This document shows positions 5,018-27,894 of a stretch of DNA of 34,097 nucleotides, one piece after another. Both the position numbers and the translations under genes were made by a program. Every line of letters starts with the position of its first letter. The stretch's first letter is position 1. Source of the DNA: Elusimicrobiota bacterium (lineage in GTDB: Bacteria > Elusimicrobiota > Elusimicrobia > Elusimicrobiales > UBA9959); the NCBI GenBank assembly GCA_016209085.1, contig JACQWV010000036.1:1-34097 (forward strand). Direction: 5' to 3'. Under the pieces are notes generated by a model that was not told the DNA's origin, ran no database searches, and saw only the letters and a list, made by a program, of their open reading frames with translations.

Positions 5018-5292
5018 TAGGGACCGTAAAGAAATTATTGACATATTTGGCTGAGCTGACCCCGCACATGATGCGGGGCAAGGAGCGAGAAGCGAGCATA
5101 TCGTTGATATGTAAGCGACGAGCGACGCAGTTGCAGCCAAAAAGCAGCCAGCCCCTTCGGGGGAAGCCGATATGCGGCCATCTGCTGCGTTGCTCCTCAC
5201 TCACATACCACAGGGTATTCTCATTCGTCGCGCCTTGCATCTGACCTCATCTCGGCTTCCCAAATGTATCACTAATTTCTTTACGGTCCCTA
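5018..5292. mobile_element. 275-bp MITE-like element, copy 1 (structured core, TAGGGACC ends)
   Basis: The ends are inverted repeats starting TAGGGACCGTAAAGAAATTA, perfect for 20 bp and then imperfect to about 33 bp. The interior (about 5050-5240) is highly palindromic. Its reverse complement matches the element at 27614-27894 closely over about 200 bp (for example GATGCAAGGCGCGACGAATG, GAGGAGCAACGCAGCAGA and GGCTGCAACTGCGTCG). No transposase is present, so it would need one in trans. It fills the gap between the GAF-PAS gene and the ferritin-like gene. Confidence 0.82.
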
Positions 5293-12511: not shown

Positions 12512-12526
12512 TTGCAGGGAGGAAAA

Positions 12527-14200
12527 ATGGCAAAAAAAGTCGTAGTAATCGGCTCCGGACCCGGCGGTTATCCGGCCGCGCTTAAACTCAAAGCATTGGG
12601 AGCCGAAGTCTGCATAATAGAAAAGCTGGATTTCGGCGGAACCTGTCTTAACAGGGGCTGCATACCTTCCAAATCATTTCTTGATGCTGCCGGCAGAATC
12701 CGCTCGTCTGAAATCCTTAAAACCCTGCTTAAAGACGGTAAATTCTTTGATTTCAATCCCGATATGCTTTCATGGGATAAGATAAAAGAACGGAAAAACT
12801 CCGCGATAAAAAAAATAAAAAATTCCCTTGAAAAACTCTTTGAATTGAACAAGATAGAAATAATAAAAGGCGCGGCGTCTTTCGCGTCAAAAAACGAAAT
12901 AGCGATACGGACGGAACGGGAGGAAATAAGGAAAAATTTTGATTTTGCGGTGATAGCAGCCGGGACGGTTCCTTTCTTCCCCCCGCCTTTTATAGATTAT
13001 AAAAACGAACTGCTTGATTCCGACAGAATTTTTGACGTTCCCGGATGCCCGGCTTCAATCATCATCATAGGGGCCGGAGCCATAGGCCTTGAATTCGCAT
13101 GTTTCTTCAATGCCCTGGGAGCGAAAACGGACGTTGTCGAAATACTTCCGGAAATTCTTCCCGGAGAAGACGAAACAGTTGCAAGAACCGCCAGGAATTC
13201 TTTTGAAAAAAGAGGCATAAAATTTCATCTCAGCCGCAAAACCGTAAAAATAACGATATCAGAAAATGAAAAAACTCTGGAACTTGACAACGGCTTGAAA
13301 ATAACGGCCGCAGAAATCCTTGTCGGAGCCGGAAGAGCGGCCGAACTCTCGGAATTAGGACTTGAAAATGCCGGCCTGAAATGGGACAGGAAAGGAATAA
13401 GAGTAAACGAATATACGCGGACTGAAATTGAAAACATTTATGCCGTAGGCGACGTAAACGGCATTTCAATGCTCGCTCATTCAGCGACAAGGCAGGGCGA
13501 AATAGCGGCTGAAAACATTTTCGGAGCGCAAAAAAGATTTGATTTGAATCTCGTCCCTAAATGCGTTTATACGCGGCCTGAAATAGCGAGCATAGGATTA
13601 AACAGGAAGCAGGCCGAGGCGCAGGGTTTGAATCCTAAAACCTCAAGAGCGTATTTCCAGTCTTCAGGCTTCGCCATAACCCATGACGAAACGGACGGCT
13701 TCGTGCAGATTGTCTATCATGCGGATAACGACGCTATTTTAGGCGCGCAGATTGCAGGCGGCCCTGCGACCGAACTGATTCACCTCTTCTCTATCCCGGT
13801 TCAATTAAAACTGAAAAGAAAAGACCTGCTTGAAGCCATATACGCACATCCGACAATGGCCGAAACCCTCCTGGGCAGGAGAAATATTTTAAAATGCTAT
13901 AATAAAACCATGACCGACCGGGAAATTATTATGGAAGTAAAAAACATAATCCGACGTCATCTACCTGAAAAAGAATTTAAAATATTTCTTTTTGGTTCTA
14001 TCGCAAAATCCAAAGCCTCCAAAAATTCTGATATTGATATAGGAATTTTAGGCCGAAAAAAAATTAACTTATTGCTTCTGCACAGAATAAAAGAAGAGAT
14101 AAAAGGCATTCCGACTTTGAAAAAAGTAGATGTGGTGGAATTAAGCAACTCTGCTTGTAACTTCACAAAAAAAGTCTTAAAACATGCTAAAAAAATATAA
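12527..14200 (+). CDS. lpd: Dihydrolipoamide dehydrogenase (glycine cleavage L protein) fused to an MNT nucleotidyltransferase
   Basis: The ATG at 12527 follows GGGAGGA. Residues 1-461 are Lpd, which reoxidises the dihydrolipoyl arm of GcvH. It has FAD motif GSGPGGY, redox pair Cys40/Cys45 (GGTCLNRGCIPSK), NAD motif GAGAIGLEF, second FAD motif YAVGDVNG and catalytic His in YAHPTMAETLL. Without a stop the frame continues from Met462 into a minimal nucleotidyltransferase with FLFGSIAKSKASKNSDIDIG, the GSx...SDxD signature. Lpd ends slightly shorter than usual. An extended -10 promoter sits inside the junction just before Met462, so the MNT may also be made alone. The HEPN partner overlaps the 3' end by 17 bp. 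The fusion looks like an insertion that removed the lpd stop codon. Confidence 0.9.
   Translation: MAKKVVVIGSGPGGYPAALKLKALGAEVCIIEKLDFGGTCLNRGCIPSKSFLDAAGRIRSSEILKTLLKDGKFFDFNPDMLSWDKIKERKNSAIKKIKNSLEKLFELNKIEIIKGAASFASKNEIAIRTEREEIRKNFDFAVIAAGTVPFFPPPFIDYKNELLDSDRIFDVPGCPASIIIIGAGAIGLEFACFFNALGAKTDVVEILPEILPGEDETVARTARNSFEKRGIKFHLSRKTVKITISENEKTLELDNGLKITAAEILVGAGRAAELSELGLENAGLKWDRKGIRVNEYTRTEIENIYAVGDVNGISMLAHSATRQGEIAAENIFGAQKRFDLNLVPKCVYTRPEIASIGLNRKQAEAQGLNPKTSRAYFQSSGFAITHDETDGFVQIVYHADNDAILGAQIAGGPATELIHLFSIPVQLKLKRKDLLEAIYAHPTMAETLLGRRNILKCYNKTMTDREIIMEVKNIIRRHLPEKEFKIFLFGSIAKSKASKNSDIDIGILGRKKINLLLLHRIKEEIKGIPTLKKVDVVELSNSACNFTKKVLKHAKKI
13895..13903 (+). promoter_or_regulatory. 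Internal extended -10 promoter for the MNT module
   Basis: TGCTATAAT, an extended -10 (TGn-TATAAT), ends 6 bp before the ATG at 13910. That ATG begins the nucleotidyltransferase part (MTDREIIMEVKNI). No -35 is needed for this promoter class and none is seen. A leaderless MNT transcript from inside the lpd 3' end would result. Confidence 0.55.
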
Positions 14201-14570
14201 TTCAGATATTTTTAATTCATTTATCAAATCAATTAAACGATTTAATGAAATATTAAACGCTCCCCAGACACTGGCTAACAGGGATTCTGCCATAAAACGG
14301 TTTGAACTGACTTTTGAATTAGCCTGGAAAAGCATAAAAGAATATTTAGACTATAAAGGTATCATATCCCGCTCACCAAGGGACTGTTTTGAGCAGGCTT
14401 TCAGCATTGGAATCATTCAGGATGATCCAGCGTGGATTAAAATGATAGAAGACAGAAATTTATCTGTCCATACATATAATGAAAAATTGGCAATGGATAT
14501 TTATCGCAGACTCGGCAAATATCTTAATCTTTTCAAAAGTCTTTCAAAATCCCTTCGTGCAAAAAAATAA
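14184..14570 (+). CDS. HI0074-type nucleotidyltransferase substrate-binding / HEPN protein
   Basis: The 128-residue all-helical protein has FELTFELAWKSIKEYLDYKG and the HEPN signature EDRNLSVHTYNE (Arg91-Asn92 ... His96). It overlaps the upstream MNT frame by 17 bp, the usual arrangement of MNT/HEPN pairs. Characterised pairs of this type act as toxin-antitoxin systems, where the MNT chemically modifies and silences the HEPN RNase. The catalytic Rx4H pair is present, so it may be an active toxin. The unusual feature is that its MNT partner is fused to Lpd. Confidence 0.88.
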   Translation: MLKKYNSDIFNSFIKSIKRFNEILNAPQTLANRDSAIKRFELTFELAWKSIKEYLDYKGIISRSPRDCFEQAFSIGIIQDDPAWIKMIEDRNLSVHTYNEKLAMDIYRRLGKYLNLFKSLSKSLRAKK

Positions 14571-14659
14571 CCGGCACCGCATATCTACTCTATTTCATCT
14601 AATCAGAAATATTCCACCCGACAATGTCTGAAACAATATATGAAGCCCTGAATAAATAA

Positions 14660-14722
14660 TTTTGCCTATAAGCAAAAAAAATTATGTAAAAATTTGCTTT
14701 CAAGCAAAATTTTATATATATT
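14660..14722 (+). promoter_or_regulatory. Promoter with two TTTGC-N6-GCAAA dyads upstream of the DUF4143 ATPase
   Basis: TTGCTT (14694-14699), a 17-bp spacer and TATATT (14717-14722) end 6 bp before the ATG at 14729, with no ribosome site, so the transcript is probably leaderless. Two dyads share the pattern TTTGC-N6-GCAAA: 14661-14676 and 14693-14708. Their centres are 32 bp apart, about three helical turns, and the second overlaps the -35. They look like operator sites. Confidence 0.6.
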
Positions 14723-14728
14723 ATAAAC

Positions 14729-15901
14729 ATGCTAAAAAACCGCTATCTCGTATCCTCTGTAGTTGAAGATTTAACAAGTAAAATGGTTTTTGTCAGCGGC
14801 CCCAGACAGGTTGGAAAGACAACACTCGCCAAATCGCTTATTGGAATAAAATTCAGAGAAACAGCGTACTTTAACTGGGATAAGCAGCATGATAGAAAAC
14901 AAATAATGTCTGCCCAATGGCCGGGTTCTGCAGAGTTGATTATTCTTGATGAAGTGCACAAGTTTAAAGGATGGAAGCGTTTTATCAAGGGTGAATACGA
15001 TGTTTATAAAGATAAATATAAATTTTTAATCACCGGAAGTGCTCGTTTGGATATTTACCGCAAAGGCGGAGATTCTCTGCAAGGTAGATATCATTATTAC
15101 CGACTGCATCCATTCACACTCACAGAATTATCAAATGGAAAATCTAAACCTGAACCATTTAAAGAGATTATTTTTGAAATGAAAAATAATAATCGGAATT
15201 TAGAAATTTTAGAAAAATTTGGCGGATTCCCAGAGCCCCTTTTCTCACAAAATGACCGTACTTTAAGGCGATGGCACAATGAACGTAATGAGCGTTTATT
15301 CCGCGAAGATATCCAGGACATAGAGATAATTTATGAATTAGGCAAAATGAAGATATTAAGTGATATGTTGTCCTCCAGAGCAGGAAATCTTCTCTCCATT
15401 AATAATCTCAGAGAAGATCTTGAAGTAAGTCACCGTGCTGTCTCACACTGGCTAAACATTCTTGAGTCATTTTATTACCATTTCCGAATATATCCATTCT
15501 CAAAAACTTTCTTTAGATCTTTAAAGAAGGAACCAAAGTTATATCTGTGGGATTGGTCAGAAGTGCAAGATGATGGTCACCGTTTTGAAAACATGGTTGC
15601 CTCTCATCTCCTGAAACTCGTTCACTGGCTCTATGACCGGGAGGGTTACAAGGCAAATCTTCATTTCCTGCGTGATACTTCTAAACGCGAAGTGGATTTT
15701 TTAGTTACTGTTGATGAAAAACCATGGTTTGCTGTAGAAACAAAAATTCAGGATGAAAATCCTGCACCATCTCTGAAATATTTTCAAAAAAAATTAAAAA
15801 TTCCTTTCGTTTACCAAGTAATTAAAAAAGACGGCATTGATAAAATTGCTGACAGAATCAGGATTGTATCAGCAAACAAATTCCTTTCCGCTTTAATATA
15901 A
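14729..15901 (+). CDS. AAA-family ATPase with DUF4143 C-terminal domain
   Basis: The 390-residue protein has Walker A VSGPRQVGKTT, Walker B LIILDEVHK, sensor LITGSARLDIY and family element LQGRYHYYRLHPFTLTEL. The C-terminal DUF4143 region includes EDLEVSHRAVSHWLNILE (winged-helix-like) and HFLRDTSKREVDFLV ... FAVETKIQ, a PD-(D/E)XK-like nuclease pattern (D/E..E-x-K). Such ATPases are abundant in mobile and conflict regions of anaerobes and archaea, but their function is unknown. Start ATG at 14729 is fixed by the promoter. Confidence 0.88.
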   Translation: MLKNRYLVSSVVEDLTSKMVFVSGPRQVGKTTLAKSLIGIKFRETAYFNWDKQHDRKQIMSAQWPGSAELIILDEVHKFKGWKRFIKGEYDVYKDKYKFLITGSARLDIYRKGGDSLQGRYHYYRLHPFTLTELSNGKSKPEPFKEIIFEMKNNNRNLEILEKFGGFPEPLFSQNDRTLRRWHNERNERLFREDIQDIEIIYELGKMKILSDMLSSRAGNLLSINNLREDLEVSHRAVSHWLNILESFYYHFRIYPFSKTFFRSLKKEPKLYLWDWSEVQDDGHRFENMVASHLLKLVHWLYDREGYKANLHFLRDTSKREVDFLVTVDEKPWFAVETKIQDENPAPSLKYFQKKLKIPFVYQVIKKDGIDKIADRIRIVSANKFLSALI

Positions 15902-16014
15902 GCATTCCCTTTTTTTCTTGCCTAAACCCTGTTGCAAGATAATAGAAATGTCATAGTCGTAGTTTTTTTTGCTTCTTTTTTCTTTTTGTTAATTCCGTGG
16001 ATACTGTTTATATC

Positions 16015-16146
16015 TGTGATTCAGACACTAAAAGACTCTTACCCCACCACCTGCTTGCCCGAAAACGGGCATTCTGCCCGAAGCAGGTGGTGGGGTAAAA
16101 CCCATTTCTTCATGGCAGAGCAAGCTCTGCAGCTGTCTGAATCACA
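16015..16146. repeat. 132-bp nested palindromic element with TGTGATTCAGACA ends
   Basis: Outer perfect inverted repeats TGTGATTCAGACA (16015-16027) and TGTCTGAATCACA (16134-16146) enclose a strong hairpin: TTACCCCACCACCTGCTT (16039-16056) pairs exactly with 16081-16098. Inside that is GCCCG-AAAA-CGGGC. A separate hairpin GCAGAGC-AA-GCTCTGC lies at 16115-16130. It fills most of the gap between the DUF4143 gene and the MNT fragment. The frame open across it (15932-16189) looks spurious. Confidence 0.8.
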
Positions 16147-16207
16147 AAAAAAATTTGTTAAAATTAAAATATACTTGACGACATTTTAAAAACATTCTTT
16201 AATTGGT

Positions 16208-16360
16208 ATGAATATTAATTTAAGCAGGCAAAAAATCCGAAAATATTTTAAATTTATCCGCGATGTTACCGCAGTCTATGTTTTTGGCTCGCATGCAGAC
16301 GGAAAAGCGAATCGTAAATTTTTTAAAAAAACCGCGATGAACGACACTTTGAAATTTTAA
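16208..16360 (+). pseudogene. Truncated MNT nucleotidyltransferase fragment
   Basis: A 50-codon frame starts MNINLSRQKIRKYFKFIR and continues VTAVYVFGSHADGKANRKF. This is the N-terminal start and GSxxxGxA part of an MNT nucleotidyltransferase, which then breaks off into KKTAMNDTLKF and a stop, before the SDxD metal-binding residues. It is a remnant of a second MNT gene, ending 6 bp before the helicase ATG. Confidence 0.72.
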
Positions 16361-16366
16361 ACGACA

Positions 16367-17953
16367 ATGCATGGAAATTCTATTGAAATAAATAACGAAT
16401 TTAAAAAAGCCCTTGAATTAGCTGAAAATACCTCTAAACATATCTTCATCACAGGTAAAGCCGGCACTGGTAAGTCCACTTTTTTAGAATATTTCCGCGA
16501 TAACACTTCTAAGAAAGTGGTAGTTTTGGCTCCTACCGGCGTAGCTGCCTTGAATGTAAAAGGTGAGACTATCCATTCATTTTTTAAATTTAAGCCTGAT
16601 ATTACCCTTGAGAAAATAAAAAAACATAAAGGCAAATCCGCAAACATTTACAAGAAGATAGATGCTATTGTCATTGATGAGATATCTATGGTGCGGGCAG
16701 ATTTGCTGGATTGTATTGATAAATGCCTGCGATTAAATGCTAAAACCTCTGGCATGGCATTTGGCGGTGTACAAATGATTTTTGTCGGCGACCTTTACCA
16801 ACTTCCGCCTGTTGTAGTTGGCAAAGAAAAAGAAATTTTTAGATTTTATTACCAAAGTCCATATTTTTTTGACGCCCGGATATTTGATGGTTTGCCAATG
16901 GAATTTGTGGAATTTGAAAAAAACTACCGCCAAAAAGATGAGCAGTTTATTAACCTGTTAAATAAGATCCGTAACAACTCAATAAGCGATAGAGAACTAT
17001 CTATAATCAACACAAGACTCAATGCGCCAGTCCCCGAGAATAAAAATTTATCATACACAGTTATTCTAACAACTACCAATCAAACAGCAATGCGGATAAA
17101 TGAGGCGCATTTGGAAAAATTAAGTGCCAGAATGTATACATATAAAGCTTTGGTAATGGGCAGTTTTGAAAAGAGCTCTTTTCCTACGGATGATTTACTT
17201 AAGGTAAAAGTCGGGGCACAGGTGATGCTTCTTAATAACGATGCCCAGGGCAGATGGGTTAATGGGACAATGGCTAAAATTGTAGATATCAAAAGCAACA
17301 AAGAAAGAGACATTATTTTCGTAAAGTTAGCCGGAGGCGAAATTGAAGAGGTTCTTCCTTATAAATGGGAAATTTTCCATTTCCGTATCAATGAAGAGAC
17401 AGGAAATCTTCAGACTGAAGTTGCAGGTAATTTTATACAATATCCCTTAAAACTTGCATGGGCAGTAACCATACACAAAAGCCAGGGAAAAACTTTTGAC
17501 CGTGTCATAATTGATTTGGAACGACCAACCTTTGCTTCTGGGCAGATGTATGTGGCTTTGAGCCGGTGCCGCTCGCTGGACGGAATAGTATTAAAACAAC
17601 CTGTAAAGAAAAGCCATATCCTGATGGATTGGCGCGTAGTGCGATTCTTAACCAAATATCAATATGAATTATCAGAAAAAAGCCTCCCGCTCAAAGAAAA
17701 GATTAACATCATCACACAAGCAATCAAAAACAGGGATTTACTGGAAATAATTTATTTAAAATCAAATGATGAAAAATCCAAGCGGGTTATTAAACCGCAG
17801 AATGTTGGCGAAAAGATGTATCTGGATAAGACATTTATTGGCGTAGAAGCATTCTGCCTTAAAAAGAAAGATAATAGAGTATTTAGAGTAGATAGAATTT
17901 TAGAAATGAAAGTTTCTCAAAGTAAAACCTCATTAAACCACATGGTTTACTGA
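16367..17953 (+). CDS. PIF1/RecD-like DNA helicase with C-terminal WYL-like domain
   Basis: The 528-residue superfamily 1 helicase has FITGKAGTGKST (Walker A), APTGVAALNVKGETIHSFF (Ia), IVIDEISMVRADLL (II), FVGDLYQLPPV (III), EKNYRQKDEQF, and the PIF1 signature WAVTIHKSQGKTFDRVIID with MYVALSRC (V/VI). Residues about 440-515 (AIKNRDLLEIIYLKSNDEK ... VEAFCLKKKDNRVFRVDRIL) match a WYL-type ligand-sensing domain. The last codons (KTSLNHMVY) and stop come from a partial MITE, so the natural C-terminus may have been replaced. It sits 34 bp upstream of an ERCC4 nuclease, suggesting a DNA-processing pair. Confidence 0.88.
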   Translation: MHGNSIEINNEFKKALELAENTSKHIFITGKAGTGKSTFLEYFRDNTSKKVVVLAPTGVAALNVKGETIHSFFKFKPDITLEKIKKHKGKSANIYKKIDAIVIDEISMVRADLLDCIDKCLRLNAKTSGMAFGGVQMIFVGDLYQLPPVVVGKEKEIFRFYYQSPYFFDARIFDGLPMEFVEFEKNYRQKDEQFINLLNKIRNNSISDRELSIINTRLNAPVPENKNLSYTVILTTTNQTAMRINEAHLEKLSARMYTYKALVMGSFEKSSFPTDDLLKVKVGAQVMLLNNDAQGRWVNGTMAKIVDIKSNKERDIIFVKLAGGEIEEVLPYKWEIFHFRINEETGNLQTEVAGNFIQYPLKLAWAVTIHKSQGKTFDRVIIDLERPTFASGQMYVALSRCRSLDGIVLKQPVKKSHILMDWRVVRFLTKYQYELSEKSLPLKEKINIITQAIKNRDLLEIIYLKSNDEKSKRVIKPQNVGEKMYLDKTFIGVEAFCLKKKDNRVFRVDRILEMKVSQSKTSLNHMVY

Positions 17954-17977
17954 GGTTTTACCCAGGCAAAATTTGGC
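17922..17977. mobile_element. GTAA...TTAC MITE, partial copy 1 (left end only)
   Basis: This copy has the left terminal palindrome (GTAAAACCTCATTAAACC ... GGTTTACTGAGGTTTTAC, one mismatch) and the inner CCCAGGCAAAATTTGG, then stops matching. It is nearly identical to the left end of the copy at 21236. It supplies the last codons and stop of the helicase gene and abuts the start of the nuclease gene. Confidence 0.85.
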
Positions 17978-17987
17978 TTGCATAAAA

Positions 17988-18695
17988 ATGATGGACAACG
18001 AACAATCAAAACACAATAACCTTTCTATCAAAATAGACTTCCGTGAAAAAGATTCCAATGTTGGGAAAATTTTGGCAGAACTTTACGGATTCCAGATAAT
18101 AGAGGATAATCTAAAAATTGGTGATTACCTTATTGGTAATGATGTGATTGTGGAGAGAAAAACAGCGATTGATTTTTCGCAATCAATTATTGATGGCAGG
18201 CTTTTCCGCCAGGCAAAAATAATGCAGCAGGTTTTCAATTTGCCATTATTTATTATTGAAGGAAAAAATGTTTTTGATACTTCCGTAAATATCCATCCAA
18301 ATGCTGTTAAAGGCGCCTTGGTGAGCCTAACTTTAGCATGGAGAATACCTGTGCTTTTTTCCACTGATTATACAGATACTGCTTTGCTGCTCTGGCTAAT
18401 TGCAAGTCAGAACTATGACTTTCACGCTGACATATCTGCTCGTCCCGGAAGAAGACCGAAGAGATTGCTTGGCCGGCAGCTTTATATTTTACAAGGTTTA
18501 CCCGGAGTTGGACCAAAATTGGCTGAAGCCCTGCTTAACCATTTTGGCAGCATTGCAAAGGTAATCACTGCTTCCGACAAAGAACTTACAGACATCCATG
18601 GATTGGGCAGAATAAAGGCACAGAAAATCAAAACGATAGTGAACTCGTTTGCGTATAAAACTCCTGGTAACAATTCAGTGAACAGTGTTCACTGA
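17988..18695 (+). CDS. XPF/ERCC4-type structure-specific nuclease with C-terminal helix-hairpin-helix
   Basis: The 235-residue protein has the XPF family active site: IKIDFREKDS (Asp17), IGDYLIGNDVIVERKTAIDF (Gly45-Asp46, Glu56-Arg57-Lys58, Asp62), i.e. GDx(n)ERKx3D. The C-terminal tandem HhH is clear (LQGLPGVGPKLAEALLNHFG and IHGLGRIKAQKI). XPF nucleases cut branched or flapped DNA and are mainly archaeal and eukaryotic; short forms occur in some bacteria. No ribosome site precedes the ATG. A MITE inserted after codon 227 replaced the last residues: removing it restores an ending TPENS in place of TPGNNSVNSVH. Partner is probably the upstream PIF1-WYL helicase. Confidence 0.9.
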   Translation: MMDNEQSKHNNLSIKIDFREKDSNVGKILAELYGFQIIEDNLKIGDYLIGNDVIVERKTAIDFSQSIIDGRLFRQAKIMQQVFNLPLFIIEGKNVFDTSVNIHPNAVKGALVSLTLAWRIPVLFSTDYTDTALLLWLIASQNYDFHADISARPGRRPKRLLGRQLYILQGLPGVGPKLAEALLNHFGSIAKVITASDKELTDIHGLGRIKAQKIKTIVNSFAYKTPGNNSVNSVH

Positions 18696-18819
18696 ATTGT
18701 TACCAGGGCAAAATTTGGTAATTTTTAGTTTTTTAAAAGAATTTTTAATTAAAACACCTAAAACAGACCAAATTTTGCCTAGGTAAATACTCACTGACAG
18801 AAGTTCAGTGAGTATTTAC
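18667..18819. mobile_element. GTAA...TTAC MITE, copy 2, with 8-bp target duplication
   Basis: The 153-bp element is flanked by perfect direct repeats AACTCCTG at 18659-18666 and 18820-18827. Each end is itself a palindrome (left GTAACAATTCAGTGAAC ... GTTCACTGAATTGTTAC; right GTAAATACTCACTGA ... TCAGTGAGTATTTAC). Inside is a second inverted pair GCAAAATTTGG / CCAAATTTTGC. GTAA termini with 8-bp duplications are known for the IS66 family, so mobilisation by an IS66-type transposase is inferred. It lies in the 3' end of the ERCC4 nuclease gene. Confidence 0.9.
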
Positions 18820-18925
18820 AACTCCTGAAAATTCTTAATACTTCCCTTCAAACAAATCAACTTGTTAATTCGTAAGATTTATTGTAACATTTCAATTATA
18901 TAAAAAAAACCTGTAAATTTAAAAT

Positions 18926-20464
18926 ATGGAAACAGAAGAAAAAATAGAGACAATACCTGTAACAATTGAAAAAAGTCATATAGTAACAATAGGTGAAAGG
19001 CTTTATAGCGAAGCTGTTGAATTGATACGAGAATTGGTCAACAACGCTTATGACGCTGACGCAACTGAAGTTTATGTGACACTCTCTACTGAAAAAATAG
19101 TTATATCAGACAATGGCTCTGGCATGGATAAAGAGGGATTGAAACAGTATTTTACCATAGGTTCAACTTTTAAAAAACATCATCGCAAAACACCGAAATT
19201 TGGGAGGGAAAGAATAGGCGAATTTGGAATAGGAAAATTTTCATCTCTTTCAGCCTGCCAGAAATTTGAGTTGCATACCAGAAGGGCGAATTTTGCCGCA
19301 ACTGTTATATTTGACAAATCAGAATGGAATAAATCCGAAGAACACTGGCATCTACCGATGAAAATTGAAACGGCTGCCCCAAATGTCCCTGATGGAACGC
19401 GAATAATCTTATACGAGCTGAATAAAGTGTTTGAGCCTGAAATAGTGGAAAGAAGACTTCAGGAAAGCGTCCCATTAAAAGCCCCTCAATTCTCGGTATT
19501 TTTAAATGGCAAAAAAATCCATCCACGATTTCTTGCCGGGAAAAGAATTCCGTTTATGGAAGGAACACCGTTTGGCATAGTGCACGGAGAAATAATAATC
19601 GCGCCACAAAGTTTGGCTGACCCTCAGGATTGTGGAATAGAATGCAAGATAAGGCAGGTAACAATCAAGAGGGAGTTTTTTGGCCTTGAAAATTTAATTG
19701 GAAGCGATATGTATAGAATATCAGGGGAAGTTCACGCTGACTTTTTGCAGGTTTCCTCTGACCGCTCAAATTTTATCATGGATTTACCCGAATATTTAGC
19801 ATTTCTGGAAATAATGAAACGGATATGCGAAAGAATAACTAAAGAGATGTTGGCATTAAAAGATGAAAAGGAAAATAGAAGAGTCGGCAGATCTCTTAAG
19901 GAAATGATAAACAAAATACAAGATGCTTTGTTAAAAAACATAGAATGGTGCCCGCCCGGATTTATCCCAGCTGAAGAACACAAGAAGAAAACAGGCGCTG
20001 CGCAGGAATTAGCAGAAAAGAAAACAGAATCTCAAATTCAACGCCAAACTCAAAAGAAAAAAAGAATAAGAAGACCAAAATTAAAACAATTGTCTCCAAG
20101 CGCATTTATAAAAAAGCTAAAAATTGGAACCAAAGGTCTGGCTCTTGTTATGGACCATTTTGGGCCATCAGCGCCTGAATCTTTCACAGAAAGTGAGATA
20201 ATTTACATTAATAGGGATCACCCTTTGTTTATCAGAGAAGCAAATAATAGAGAAAGACACATTATGCATGTTGCAAGGCTTATAACCCAGGAAATAGCTC
20301 TTATGAGCAATCCCAAAAATCCAAGACAGGCATTTGAGAGGCAATCAAAACTTTTGAAAGATTCTTTTTCTGATAAATCCGCTCATAGTGAAAATACTAC
20401 CCAAGAGACTAACGCCGAAGGACAGAAAAATCAAAATATAGACCAACAAGAAATGAAAATATGA
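18926..20464 (+). CDS. GHKL (Hsp90/MutL/MORC-like) ATPase
   Basis: The 512-residue protein has the Bergerat ATP-binding fold in its first 200 residues: ELIRELVNNAYDADATEV (Glu36, Asn40), SDNGSGMD, and RIGEFGIGKFSSLSA. A transducer-like middle region follows, then a charged linker (about 345-390, KKKTGAAQELAEKKTESQIQ and KKKRIRRPK). The C-terminal domain has EIIYINRDHPLFI and HVARLITQEIALM, a segment seen in MORC/Hsp90-like bacterial proteins of defence and repair loci. It heads a unit with a small protein (4-bp ATGA overlap) and a nucleotidyltransferase. No ribosome site precedes the ATG; TAAATT 6 bp upstream may be a -10. Function unknown. Confidence 0.85.
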   Translation: METEEKIETIPVTIEKSHIVTIGERLYSEAVELIRELVNNAYDADATEVYVTLSTEKIVISDNGSGMDKEGLKQYFTIGSTFKKHHRKTPKFGRERIGEFGIGKFSSLSACQKFELHTRRANFAATVIFDKSEWNKSEEHWHLPMKIETAAPNVPDGTRIILYELNKVFEPEIVERRLQESVPLKAPQFSVFLNGKKIHPRFLAGKRIPFMEGTPFGIVHGEIIIAPQSLADPQDCGIECKIRQVTIKREFFGLENLIGSDMYRISGEVHADFLQVSSDRSNFIMDLPEYLAFLEIMKRICERITKEMLALKDEKENRRVGRSLKEMINKIQDALLKNIEWCPPGFIPAEEHKKKTGAAQELAEKKTESQIQRQTQKKKRIRRPKLKQLSPSAFIKKLKIGTKGLALVMDHFGPSAPESFTESEIIYINRDHPLFIREANNRERHIMHVARLITQEIALMSNPKNPRQAFERQSKLLKDSFSDKSAHSENTTQETNAEGQKNQNIDQQEMKI

Positions 20465-20685
20465 GTCACATCATAAAATTTCAATCCTTTGAAGAGATGA
20501 ATAATTATGTATTCAAAGGTTTTTATAAAAAAAAATTCGTTCCAGAAAAATTTGAGGAGTTTTTAGAGGGATTTTCAGGGCATATTAAAAACCCATATAA
20601 ACCCGGGGTTTATAAATTTAAAACCTTTGAAGAAGCAAGAAAATTTGAGATTAAATTAAAAATAAAGAATGGTAACTTTAAATAA
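20461..20685 (+). CDS. Small hypothetical protein of the GHKL-nucleotidyltransferase unit
   Basis: The 74-residue lysine- and phenylalanine-rich protein starts MSHIIKFQSFEEMNNYVFKG and contains two similar segments: FQSFEEMNNYVF and FKTFEEARKFEI. Its ATG overlaps the stop of the GHKL gene (ATGA) and its end overlaps the next start by 17 bp, so all three are translationally coupled. I do not recognise the family. Position and coupling suggest an adaptor between the ATPase and the nucleotidyltransferase. Confidence 0.7.
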   Translation: MSHIIKFQSFEEMNNYVFKGFYKKKFVPEKFEEFLEGFSGHIKNPYKPGVYKFKTFEEARKFEIKLKIKNGNFK

Positions 20686-21151
20686 ACTTGCTAAGGTTTG
20701 CAGCAGCCTTAATAAATATGCCGTAGAATACATCATTATTGGAGGATGCGCGATTTTTATCCATGGCTACGAGAGAATGACACAGGATATAGATGTGCTC
20801 ATAAATGCAAACGATAAAAATATTGAAAAATTTAAAATGGCTTTAGGTGAATTTCTACCAGAAGCATGCAAAGAACTCACAAACAATGATATAAAAGAAA
20901 ATGCAGTCATCAGAATGGTAAGCGAAGACCTGATTATTGACGTGATACATAGGATTGGAGATTTTGACTATAAAACAATAAAAAACGATATTATCATTGA
21001 AGAAATATATGGCGTAAAAATACTTGTTGCAGGACTGAATAGCATGTTAAAGTTAAAACAGGGCGTAAGGGAAACTGACAAAAAGGATTTTCTGTTTTTG
21101 CTCGGCAAGAAAAAATATTTAGATGAACAAAAAAACGACAAGAGCGCCTGA
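20669..21151 (+). CDS. Nucleotidyltransferase-fold protein (DUF6036 / AbiEii-like)
   Basis: The 160-residue protein has YIIIGGCAIFIHGYERMTQD followed by IDVLI, the GG ... DxD arrangement of the nucleotidyltransferase fold (Gly25-Gly26, Asp40, Asp42), then DLIIDVIHRIGDFDY with a possible third carboxylate. The C-terminus (GLNSMLKLKQGVRETDKKD) matches small NTases of the AbiEii/DUF6036 type, many of which are toxins or defence proteins. It is the third gene of the GHKL unit, with its start inside the previous gene. Substrate unknown. Confidence 0.78.
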   Translation: MVTLNKLAKVCSSLNKYAVEYIIIGGCAIFIHGYERMTQDIDVLINANDKNIEKFKMALGEFLPEACKELTNNDIKENAVIRMVSEDLIIDVIHRIGDFDYKTIKNDIIIEEIYGVKILVAGLNSMLKLKQGVRETDKKDFLFLLGKKKYLDEQKNDKSA

Positions 21152-21235
21152 CAGGCATCTGTCTATAAGCGGAATATCTTTTGACCTGCTGAAAAACCAT
21201 TCTCAAATTTCATCTCCGCACAAACCCAAATAAAC

Positions 21236-21390
21236 GTAAAACCTCAGTAAACCACATGGTTTACTGAGGTTTTACCCAGGCAAAATTTGGCGATTTTTAG
21301 TTCTTTAAAAGAATTTTTTATAAAAGAACCTAAAATAGACCAAATTTTGCTTAGGTAAATATTCACTGACGGGGTTCAGTGAATATTTAC
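21236..21390. mobile_element. GTAA...TTAC MITE, copy 3, with 8-bp target duplication
   Basis: The 155-bp element is flanked by perfect AAATAAAC at 21228-21235 and 21391-21398. The left end is an 18-bp-arm palindrome (GTAAAACCTCAGTAAACC ... GGTTTACTGAGGTTTTAC); the right end is GTAAATATTCACTGA ... TCAGTGAATATTTAC. The interior, with GCAAAATTTGG / CCAAATTTTGC, matches copy 2 closely. It marks the right boundary of the accessory island, directly before the gcvT promoter. Confidence 0.92.
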
Positions 21391-21398
21391 AAATAAAC

Positions 21399-23077: not shown

Positions 23078-24568
23078 ATGTACATCTCCAACACCGACAA
23101 AGAACGGGAGGAAATGCTCAGAGCCATCGGCGTCTCCTCAATAACAGAACTTCTCAGTCAAATTCCGCAGAAATATCTGTATCCTGAATTCAGCCTGCCG
23201 CACGACCGGAATAACGAGCCTCTGGCTCATCAAGTGTCGGGCGCTCTGCCGCACGACTCATTGGACGAGATGGAACTCCGCTCCGCGCTGAAAAAATCAG
23301 CGGCAAAAAATACGGGGCTTTTGAGCTTTGTCGGAGCCGGCGCATATGAAAGATACATTCCGGCTGCAGTTAAGGCCGTGACAGCCAGGGGAGAATTTTT
23401 AACCGCCTACACCCCTTATCAGGCAGAAGCAAGCCAGGGAATTCTGCAGTCTATTTATGAATATCAGAGCCTCGTCTGCTCGCTTTTTGAAATGGAAGCG
23501 TCAAACGCGTCCATGTACGACGGAGCATCCGCTCTCGCGGAAGCCGCAAGAGCCTGCGTAAGAATTACTTCAAAAAAACAGATACTCTATTCCGGAGCCG
23601 TTCATCCGCACTGCCTGGAGACATTAAGAACGTACTTGGGCGGTTCCGGGGAAGTCGTCGGCATAGCCTCCGACACCTGTGGCAGGGGGACAGAGCCCCC
23701 TGCACTTGATGAGCCAGAGGCTCGTTGTTCCGGCCGCAGTGCGGCTGTTCCGTATGAATTCATAAAAATCCGAGTAAAAAACGGAAAAACGGATTTATCC
23801 GTTCTTGAAAAAACCATCGGCTCCGATACGGCATGCGTGATAGCCCAGAGTCCCAATTTTTTCGGCGTGATTGAGGATATGGAAGAAATTTCAGGAATAG
23901 TTCATAAAAACGGGGCTCTTTTTGCAGCGTCAGCCGATCCTGTCAGCCTTGGAATTCTTGCGCCTCCGGGCTCTCATTCGGCAGACTTTGCAGTCGCCGA
24001 GGGCCAGAGCCTGGGACTTCCTTTAAATTACGGAGGGCCTTATCTTGGAATATTTACATGCAAAAAAGATTATATAAGGCAAATGCCCGGAAGAATAGCG
24101 GGCATGACCAGAGACAAAGACGGAAAAAGAGGTTTTGTTCTGACCATACAGGCAAGAGAACAGCACATAAGAAGAGAAAAATCCGCTTCCAATATTTGTT
24201 CAAATGAGGCTCTTTGCGCCCTGGCCGCAGCCGTATATCTGACTCTTTTGGGCCCGGACGGCATAAAAGAGCTTGCCCTGTTAAACGCCGCAAAAGCTTC
24301 TTTCGCGGCGGACAAACTTTCCTCAATAAAAGGGATTTCACTAAAATTCAAAGAACCTTTCTTTAATGAATTTGCGCTTGAACTGCCTGTGAACGCGGAA
24401 AATCTGAGGAAAGCCCTTATTAAATCGGAGAAAATAGATATAGGCCTGCCTTTGGGATTATTTTTCCCGGAAATGAAAAATTCTCTTCTTGTCGCGGCGA
24501 CTGAAACGAAAACCGAAGAAGATATTTTAAGGCTTGAATCCGCAATTAAGAGATATATATGTCAATAG
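23078..24568 (+). CDS. gcvPA: Glycine dehydrogenase (decarboxylating) subunit 1, with two in-frame repeat insertions
   Basis: The 496-residue N-terminal subunit of split P protein has SFVGAGAYERYIP, TAYTPYQAEASQGILQ, MYDGASALAEA, ADPVSLGILAPPG, GGPYLGIFTCKK, MPGRIAG and QAREQHIRREKS. Normal length is about 445-450. The excess lies in two places. Residues 44-60 (RNNEPLAHQVSGALPHD) interrupt the usual YPE..LP...SEMEL segment and are bounded by a 12-bp direct repeat CTGCCGCACGAC. About residues 200-224 (CGRGTEPPALDEPEARCSGR) interrupt the strand before VKNGKTDLSVL. The two insertions share a 32-bp core in opposite orientation. Both are surface-loop positions, so function may be kept. It overlaps gcvPB by 10 bp. 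Confidence 0.94.
   Translation: MYISNTDKEREEMLRAIGVSSITELLSQIPQKYLYPEFSLPHDRNNEPLAHQVSGALPHDSLDEMELRSALKKSAAKNTGLLSFVGAGAYERYIPAAVKAVTARGEFLTAYTPYQAEASQGILQSIYEYQSLVCSLFEMEASNASMYDGASALAEAARACVRITSKKQILYSGAVHPHCLETLRTYLGGSGEVVGIASDTCGRGTEPPALDEPEARCSGRSAAVPYEFIKIRVKNGKTDLSVLEKTIGSDTACVIAQSPNFFGVIEDMEEISGIVHKNGALFAASADPVSLGILAPPGSHSADFAVAEGQSLGLPLNYGGPYLGIFTCKKDYIRQMPGRIAGMTRDKDGKRGFVLTIQAREQHIRREKSASNICSNEALCALAAAVYLTLLGPDGIKELALLNAAKASFAADKLSSIKGISLKFKEPFFNEFALELPVNAENLRKALIKSEKIDIGLPLGLFFPEMKNSLLVAATETKTEEDILRLESAIKRYICQ
23195..23257. repeat. Coding palindromic element 1 in gcvPA
   Basis: A 51-bp insertion is flanked by direct repeats CTGCCGCACGAC (23195-23206 and 23246-23257). Its core, 23206-23237, starts CCGGAATAACGAGCC, contains the palindrome GAGCC-TCT-GGCTC and ends CATCAAGTGT. 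The reverse complement of 23702-23733 matches it at 30 of 32 positions. Confidence 0.88.
23671..23748. repeat. Coding palindromic element 2 in gcvPA (inverted relative to element 1)
   Basis: The insertion holds three hairpins in a row: GCAGGGGG-ACAGAG-CCCCCTGC, GAGCC-AGA-GGCTC and GCCGCA-TGCGGC. The core 23702-23733 (GCACTTGATGAGCC ... TTGTTCCGG) is the inverted copy of the core at 23206-23237. It keeps the reading frame open, like the protein-coding palindromic elements known from Rickettsia. Confidence 0.88.
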
Positions 24569-27625: not shown

Positions 27626-27894
27626 ATAAATAATGTCCTACTTTGGAGGCTCAGATTTGGATTGGATGCAAGGCGCGACGAATGAGCATAGCGTCTGCTA
27701 TGTGAATGAGGAGCAACGCAGCAGACGGCCAAATATGAGCCTCCCCTTTCCCGCAGGGGAAAGGGGCTGGCCGCTTTTCGGCTGCAACTGCGTCGTTCAT
27801 CGCTTACATATCAAAAGATATGCTCGCTCCTTACTCCTTGTCTCGCTCAAAAATCGGCTCAGCCAAAGCGGACATTATTTATGTTTGCCTCAGT
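27614..27894. mobile_element. 281-bp MITE-like element, copy 2 (same core, ACTGAGGC ends)
   Basis: Perfect 25-bp inverted ends start ACTGAGGCAAACATAAATAA (27614-27638 and 27870-27894). The core matches the reverse complement of 5018-5292 over about 200 bp, yet the ends are unrelated to the TAGGGACC ends of that copy. Internal sequence is palindromic (for example TATGTGAATGAGGAGCAACG against TGCGTCGTTCATCGCTTACA). The right end contributes the start codon of the gene at 27881. Confidence 0.85.

Follow-up and report, generated by a model that had tools for sequence, protein, structure and literature searches.

In the window, that is, the whole stretch of 34,097 nucleotides from an Elusimicrobiota bacterium that was analysed, three open reading frames follow each other on the + strand at 18926-20464, 20461-20685 and 20669-21151, and encode proteins of 512, 74 (P0002) and 160 (P0003) amino acids, respectively. 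As stated in the original prediction, the first two frames overlap by 4 bp (ATGA) and the last two by 17 bp. Since the frames overlap, the three genes are probably co-transcribed and translationally coupled at this locus; a scan of the region for consensus promoters and terminators yielded promoter-like sites that did not exceed the level of shuffled sequences. The trio and the two repeats that flank it are as follows.

18667-18819, no strand assigned: three-hairpin MITE left of the trio, with the 8-bp target-site duplication AACTCCTG at 18659-18666 and 18820-18827 (supported by genomic repeat copies)
18926-20464, + strand: solo GHKL-S5 ATPase whose C-terminal domain is conserved (Pfam, 45-sequence alignment, AlphaFold model)
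20461-20685, + strand: small 74-aa partner of the nucleotidyltransferase (profile of 18 partner proteins)
20669-21151, + strand: minimal nucleotidyltransferase (NTase), DUF6036/DUF2204-like, GG...D40-x-D42...D91 (Pfam, conserved residues)
21236-21390, no strand assigned: three-hairpin MITE right of the trio, with the 8-bp target-site duplication AAATAAAC at 21228-21235 and 21391-21398

The trio belongs to an AT-rich island of about 7 kb (14184-21230) located between lpd and gcvT, the genes of which have a measured GC content of 25-39%, versus 46-48% in the gcv (glycine-cleavage) genes. Whereas lpd and gcvT are separated by these 7 kb in the window, the distance is only 0.1-0.9 kb in four relatives (L178, L180, L182 and L187); in the other relatives read, no lpd was visible within 1.5 kb. 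Apart from the trio, the island contains a HEPN/MNT pair, an AAA-DUF4143 ATPase, a PIF1-WYL helicase and an ERCC4 nuclease. At its left edge (12512-14200), the frame of lpd (dihydrolipoyl dehydrogenase) continues without a stop codon into an MNT-type NTase, giving an apparent Lpd-MntA fusion; a HEPN-like NTase_sub_bind gene (14184-14570) comes next.

The flanking MITE is an intergenic element of about 155 bp made of three consecutive hairpins with GTAA...TTAC ends, the right-hand copy having a folding z-score of -13. A half copy is found at 17919-17977 and further copies elsewhere in the genome (C49, C40, C139, C114, C59 and C95). The copies are bordered by 8-bp target-site duplications (AACTCCTG, AAATAAAC, GATGAAAC, GCTATCGC and CTTGCTTT), and the arms of their first hairpin vary while pairing is retained. 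The element has no match in Rfam, no autonomous parent of it was found, and a search of 21 genomes of the class, run without a positive control, returned no copy. The two flanking repeats were considered as possible boundaries of a cassette, and this was rejected: each has its own target-site duplication, and these separate duplications therefore point to independent MITE insertions rather than to cassette ends. IS66-like non-autonomous elements also have GTAA ends and 8-bp target duplications; the MITEs resemble them in both respects and differ by their three consecutive hairpins and by the lack of an identified autonomous parent. The ERCC4-HhH nuclease gene (17973-18695) and the PIF1-WYL gene (16367-17953) terminate within MITE sequence, so the insertions provide their stop codons. 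Two other kinds of repeat were seen in the window: within the gcvPA coding frame, inverted repeat copies at 23203-23248 and 23691-23736 encode EPEARCSGR-like peptides and resemble a palindromic repeat that was inserted in frame, and long inverted repeats lie 22 kb apart on opposite strands at 5104-5241 and 27665-27814 (82 nt, 85%; 54 nt, 93%).

The 512-aa protein matches Pfam HATPase_c_3 (E=2e-20), and its ATP-binding residues E36, N40, D62, G64, G66, G101, G103 and K104 are invariant or nearly so in an alignment of 45 homologues. Its AlphaFold model has a pLDDT of 82. The ATPase and S5/transducer regions occupy residues ~13-311, a helix spans 288-337, and a linker leads to a C-terminal domain (394-480) and a 31-residue tail. 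The nearest solved structures are the ATPase modules of MORC3 and MORC2 (Z 22-24 over ~287 residues), followed by Hsp90 and TRAP1 (Z ~20), which bears out the earlier description of an Hsp90/MORC-like ATPase, both in terms of Pfam family (GHKL) and of predicted fold. S5-like strands are present in the model, and the protein thereby combines GHKL motifs with an S5 region, as is expected of MORC. Iyer, Abhiman and Aravind (2008; PMC2292703) define MORC proteins, in addition, by the sequence GhXhhpXXRhl within the S5 domain, a motif that was found in none of the 45 homologues. Besides, the 25 neighbour families met most often at the ATPase loci include neither methylases, SFII helicases nor restriction nucleases. 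Because the motif is missing throughout and restriction-modification genes are not frequent neighbours, the ATPase is termed here MORC-like rather than MORC.

The C-terminal domain (~residues 394-480) is strongly conserved, with N429, H432, P433, R451, Q455 and E456 as its main positions, and no Foldseek match to it reached E <0.001, leaving it with no clear solved relative. Several identities were considered for it and rejected. A zincin of the YbeY/selecase type gave VIA-align Z scores of 7 at most, and HExxH occurs in 0/45 homologues. The weak VIA-align match to the HtpG C-terminal domain (Z 5.7) was not taken as a sign of membership. As for the RE-fold nuclease of paraMORC3, a loose E-D-ExK regular expression fits 26 of the 45 sequences, but the invariant or nearly invariant columns contain no ExK, and hence no invariant E-D-ExK set exists in the family. 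Pfam likewise gave no match to DUF4263 (PD-(D/E)xK nuclease) in the 45 homologues.

The ATPase could alternatively be a paraMORC whose partner restriction-modification or nuclease system lies at another, unlinked locus. Such a reading would fit the GHKL-S5 architecture, the MORC2/3 modules as best fold match, and the fact that, of the named sequence models, the nearest to the protein represents the N-terminus of BbrUII/HgiDII restriction enzymes (residues 20-199 only, E=1.5e-31); stand-alone paraMORC3 genes are, moreover, on record (PMC2292703). The missing MORC motif, the C-terminal domain devoid of an invariant E-D-ExK set and the neighbourhoods without frequent restriction-modification families all weigh against it, and we consider it rather unlikely.

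When 84,980 species genomes were scanned with a three-sequence alignment, full-length homologues of the ATPase with 39-57% identity were recovered from many phyla, a good number of them from the Nitrospirota and deltaproteobacterial lineages. In all, about 55 near-complete or full-length homologues (39-72% identity) are known besides the one in the window. Scans of genomes and viral contigs with a single sequence had returned no relatives, probably owing to peptide patterns in poorly conserved stretches, and the genome relatives emerged with the three-sequence alignment; in viral contigs, the ATPase query gave domain-level GHKL matches only. Within the phylum, the gene is intact in 3 of 341 genomes, and a fourth Elusimicrobiota genome (G002, L003 1369-1809) retains a remnant in which the ATPase domain has been deleted in frame, so that ~22 N-terminal residues are joined to the C-terminal domain. 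The ATPase tree follows the phyla in part. As the window protein groups there with other Elusimicrobiota, the sequences suggest an old gene that has been retained patchily, as opposed to a defence cassette that became mobile only recently.

Clustering of the neighbours revealed no conserved family at the ATPase loci, apart from a few Nitrospirota that share local synteny. Within the lists of the 25 commonest families, those linked to toxin-antitoxin modules comprise PIN (6), Phd (3), NTP_transf (3), AbiEii (2), HEPN (2) and BrnT (2) beside the ATPases, versus PemK (3) and PIN (2) at more than 2.5 kb. Since such families are thus somewhat commoner nearby than farther off, a loose association of the ATPase with toxin-antitoxin modules is possible. 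The nearest orthologue (G146, L009) has an AbiEii-type NTase 0.6 kb downstream, with an HTH gene ahead of that NTase.

P0003 scores above the Pfam cut-offs for both DUF6036 (E=3e-6) and DUF2204 (E=1e-4). Among 24 NTase homologues, G25, G26, D40, D42 and D91 are conserved, D40 and D42 being present in 24/24 and D91 in 23/24, and P0003 shows the GG/GS...DxD...D catalytic signature of the NTase superfamily. The 160-aa product is therefore a small NTase, as had been proposed, with its catalytic residues kept. By contrast with these two families, AbiEii (DUF1814) scored 17.2 bits, below its cut-off of 22.5, and no AbiEi match was present. Relatives of P0003 occur in 95 of the 341 genomes of the phylum, with seven matches in the window's own genome, and none was detected in viral contigs. 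The literature searched nowhere names DUF6036, and DUF2204 is mentioned in passing by one paper.

P0002 belongs to no family of Pfam, NCBIfam or PADLOC, and it carries two copies of F-x-[ST]-F-E-E, at residues 6-11 and 53-58; the original prediction of an unrecognised protein with an internal repeat is in agreement with both observations. Used as a sole query, P0002 found no convincing relative in the genomes of the phylum or in plasmids. More information was gained from the NTase loci, 30 of which (window included) were read ~1.5 kb to each side. Most of them adjoin some small ORF, and these neighbours include a group of partners of 60-110 aa with a C-terminal P-x-G-V-[YWH]-x-F-K-[TS]-[FH]-E-E-A motif, a variable N-terminus and no recognisable catalytic motif. 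The second F-x-[ST]-F-E-E copy of P0002 falls in the conserved KPGVYKFKTFEEA motif, and two partners (L112 and L124) have copies of the motif at both ends, in the same way as the internal repeat of P0002. A profile of 18 partner proteins, from which P0002 was left out, retrieved P0002 with 29.0 bits (E=8e-7 among 14,607 ORFs), versus 9.5 bits for the best of 2,000 shuffled P0002 controls. Matches to this profile adjoin the NTase at 18 of the 29 other loci of the phylum (19/30 with the window counted). Among the loci without a profile match and the same-genome paralogues, several have other small neighbours, for instance of a 'SFEEAERFNDxYYLSMTPEERL' type or a 'RGFxYYxSxxxLxxYK' type.

Among plasmids, the NTase has a single relative, on the conjugative Azospira plasmid pAZI09, in another phylum, where it is preceded by a 75-aa protein that overlaps it by 1 bp and shares 40% identity with one of the partners. 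The ATPase is absent there, and both genes are annotated 'hypothetical protein'. On the strength of the profile recovery, the 18/29 adjacent partners and the pAZI09 pair, P0002 and P0003 form, as judged from their sequences, a real two-gene module; the guess that P0002 would be the partner of the NTase is thus substantiated by pairs that are common in the phylum and by one on a plasmid of another phylum.

The original prediction had gone further and joined the three genes into a single system. In a genuine system of this kind, whether for defence or as a toxin-antitoxin, a target would be sensed or remodelled by the ATPase, which would license the NTase, while the small protein would serve as adaptor or antitoxin. 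The frames of the trio do overlap on the same strand, and GHKL ATPases are known in defence, as in the Shedu-type VcSduA (PMC12137116), and in restriction-modification loci (PMC2292703). However, the order ATPase-small protein-NTase was seen nowhere else: a tblastn of P0002 and P0003 against the ATPase loci detected a relative of either at 0 of the ~55 full-length loci, the sole P0003 match (L065) being weak (34% over 100 aa) and ~3 kb from an ATPase fragment, and the ATPase is found at 0 of the 29 other NTase loci within the ~1.5 kb read on each side. In the same line, a genome whose ATPase is 57% identical to that of the window (G332) is absent from the list of NTase genomes. The co-occurrence check set beforehand thus found ATPase homologues routinely without the other two genes and, since these homologues are full-length without either partner, the three-part unit is refuted. 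The NTase pair by itself, moreover, accounts for P0002. The three-part system is consequently regarded as highly improbable, and we conclude, with a probability of roughly 87%, that the segment consists of two independent units that became neighbours through an accreting island and do not constitute one machine.

The 4-bp overlap itself is in line with two units. Beyond the last conserved position of the family, the window ATPase extends by 31 residues, the longest such tail of the 45 homologues (median 4), and the ATGA shared with the small protein sits at the end of this non-homologous stretch. Because of this extension, the overlap looks secondary. Accretion and the loss of a stop codon would explain the layout without a three-part machine. 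As the overlaps imply likely co-transcription and coupling, a local functional link between the ATPase and the pair at the window is nonetheless conceivable.

Regarding function, the predicted fold suggests that the ATPase would close as an ATP-bound dimer and clamp like MORC, Hsp90 or MutL, and that it would act on DNA or on a protein complex via its conserved C-terminal domain; its solo occurrence across genomes indicates that no genetically linked partner would be needed. In the light of its layout, its abundance and the analogy with MenAT, AbiE and MntA/HepT, we interpret the two genes as an NTase module of toxin-antitoxin-like type, named neither in Pfam nor in the literature searched. 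The NTase would most likely be the active component and would transfer a nucleotide to RNA or protein, an RNA target being, by analogy with MenT, tRNA 3' ends. The small protein, the pairing of which is observed, would bind and restrain the NTase as antitoxin to toxin; the chance that the NTase is the toxin is about even. The polarity could also be reversed, the NTase neutralising a toxic small protein as MntA neutralises HepT by adenylylation. In PMC7641770, the minimal NTase MntA is described as inactivating its partner through polyadenylylation, and a HEPN/MNT pair is present in the same island as the trio; yet the small partners have no HEPN match (none was found for P0002 or its relatives) and lack a recognisable catalytic motif, which makes this arrangement distinctly unlikely. 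Whatever likelihood these two polarities leave goes to a role of the pair outside toxin-antitoxin systems.

Taken together, these data remove a false three-part defence candidate and illustrate that frames which overlap within an accreted island can mimic an operon. Left standing are a prolific small protein/NTase pair, in the single annotated copy of which both genes are labelled 'hypothetical protein', and a family of solo MORC-like ATPases that occurs in many uncultured phyla. It is tempting, though still tentative, to propose that small FEE-motif proteins paired with DUF6036/DUF2204-like NTases represent an undescribed, widespread NTase toxin-antitoxin class, and that the solo ATPase represents a new branch of MORC relatives in prokaryotes, independent of restriction-modification genes.

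Compared with known systems, the ATPase shares with MORC and paraMORC (PMC2292703) a GHKL and S5 module with intact motifs, MORC2/3 as best structural neighbours and a sporadic distribution across phyla, but differs by the S5 motif absent from 45/45 sequences, by the lack of restriction-modification families among its frequent neighbours and by its own C-terminal domain (N429, H432-P433, R451, Q455-E456), which bears no RE-fold signature. With Hsp90/HtpG and MutL it has in common the ATPase superfamily and the transducer, as well as the weak C-terminal likeness to HtpG (Z 5.7), whereas it scores far under their cut-offs and has another C-terminal sequence and length. From the Shedu type with GHKL (VcSduA) the family is set apart by the absence of the C-terminal DUF4263 nuclease. 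The pair, for its part, resembles MenT/AbiEii (DUF1814) in that a protein of NTase fold shares its operon with a paired regulator, although P0003 is a single 160-aa domain with DUF6036/DUF2204 as best Pfam families, and P0002 is no AbiEi-type protein. Finally, while P0002 is not a HEPN protein and P0003 falls in a different Pfam family, the pair is akin to MntA/HepT (MNT-HEPN) in that a minimal NTase is joined to a small protein in modules that are abundant and often present several times per genome.
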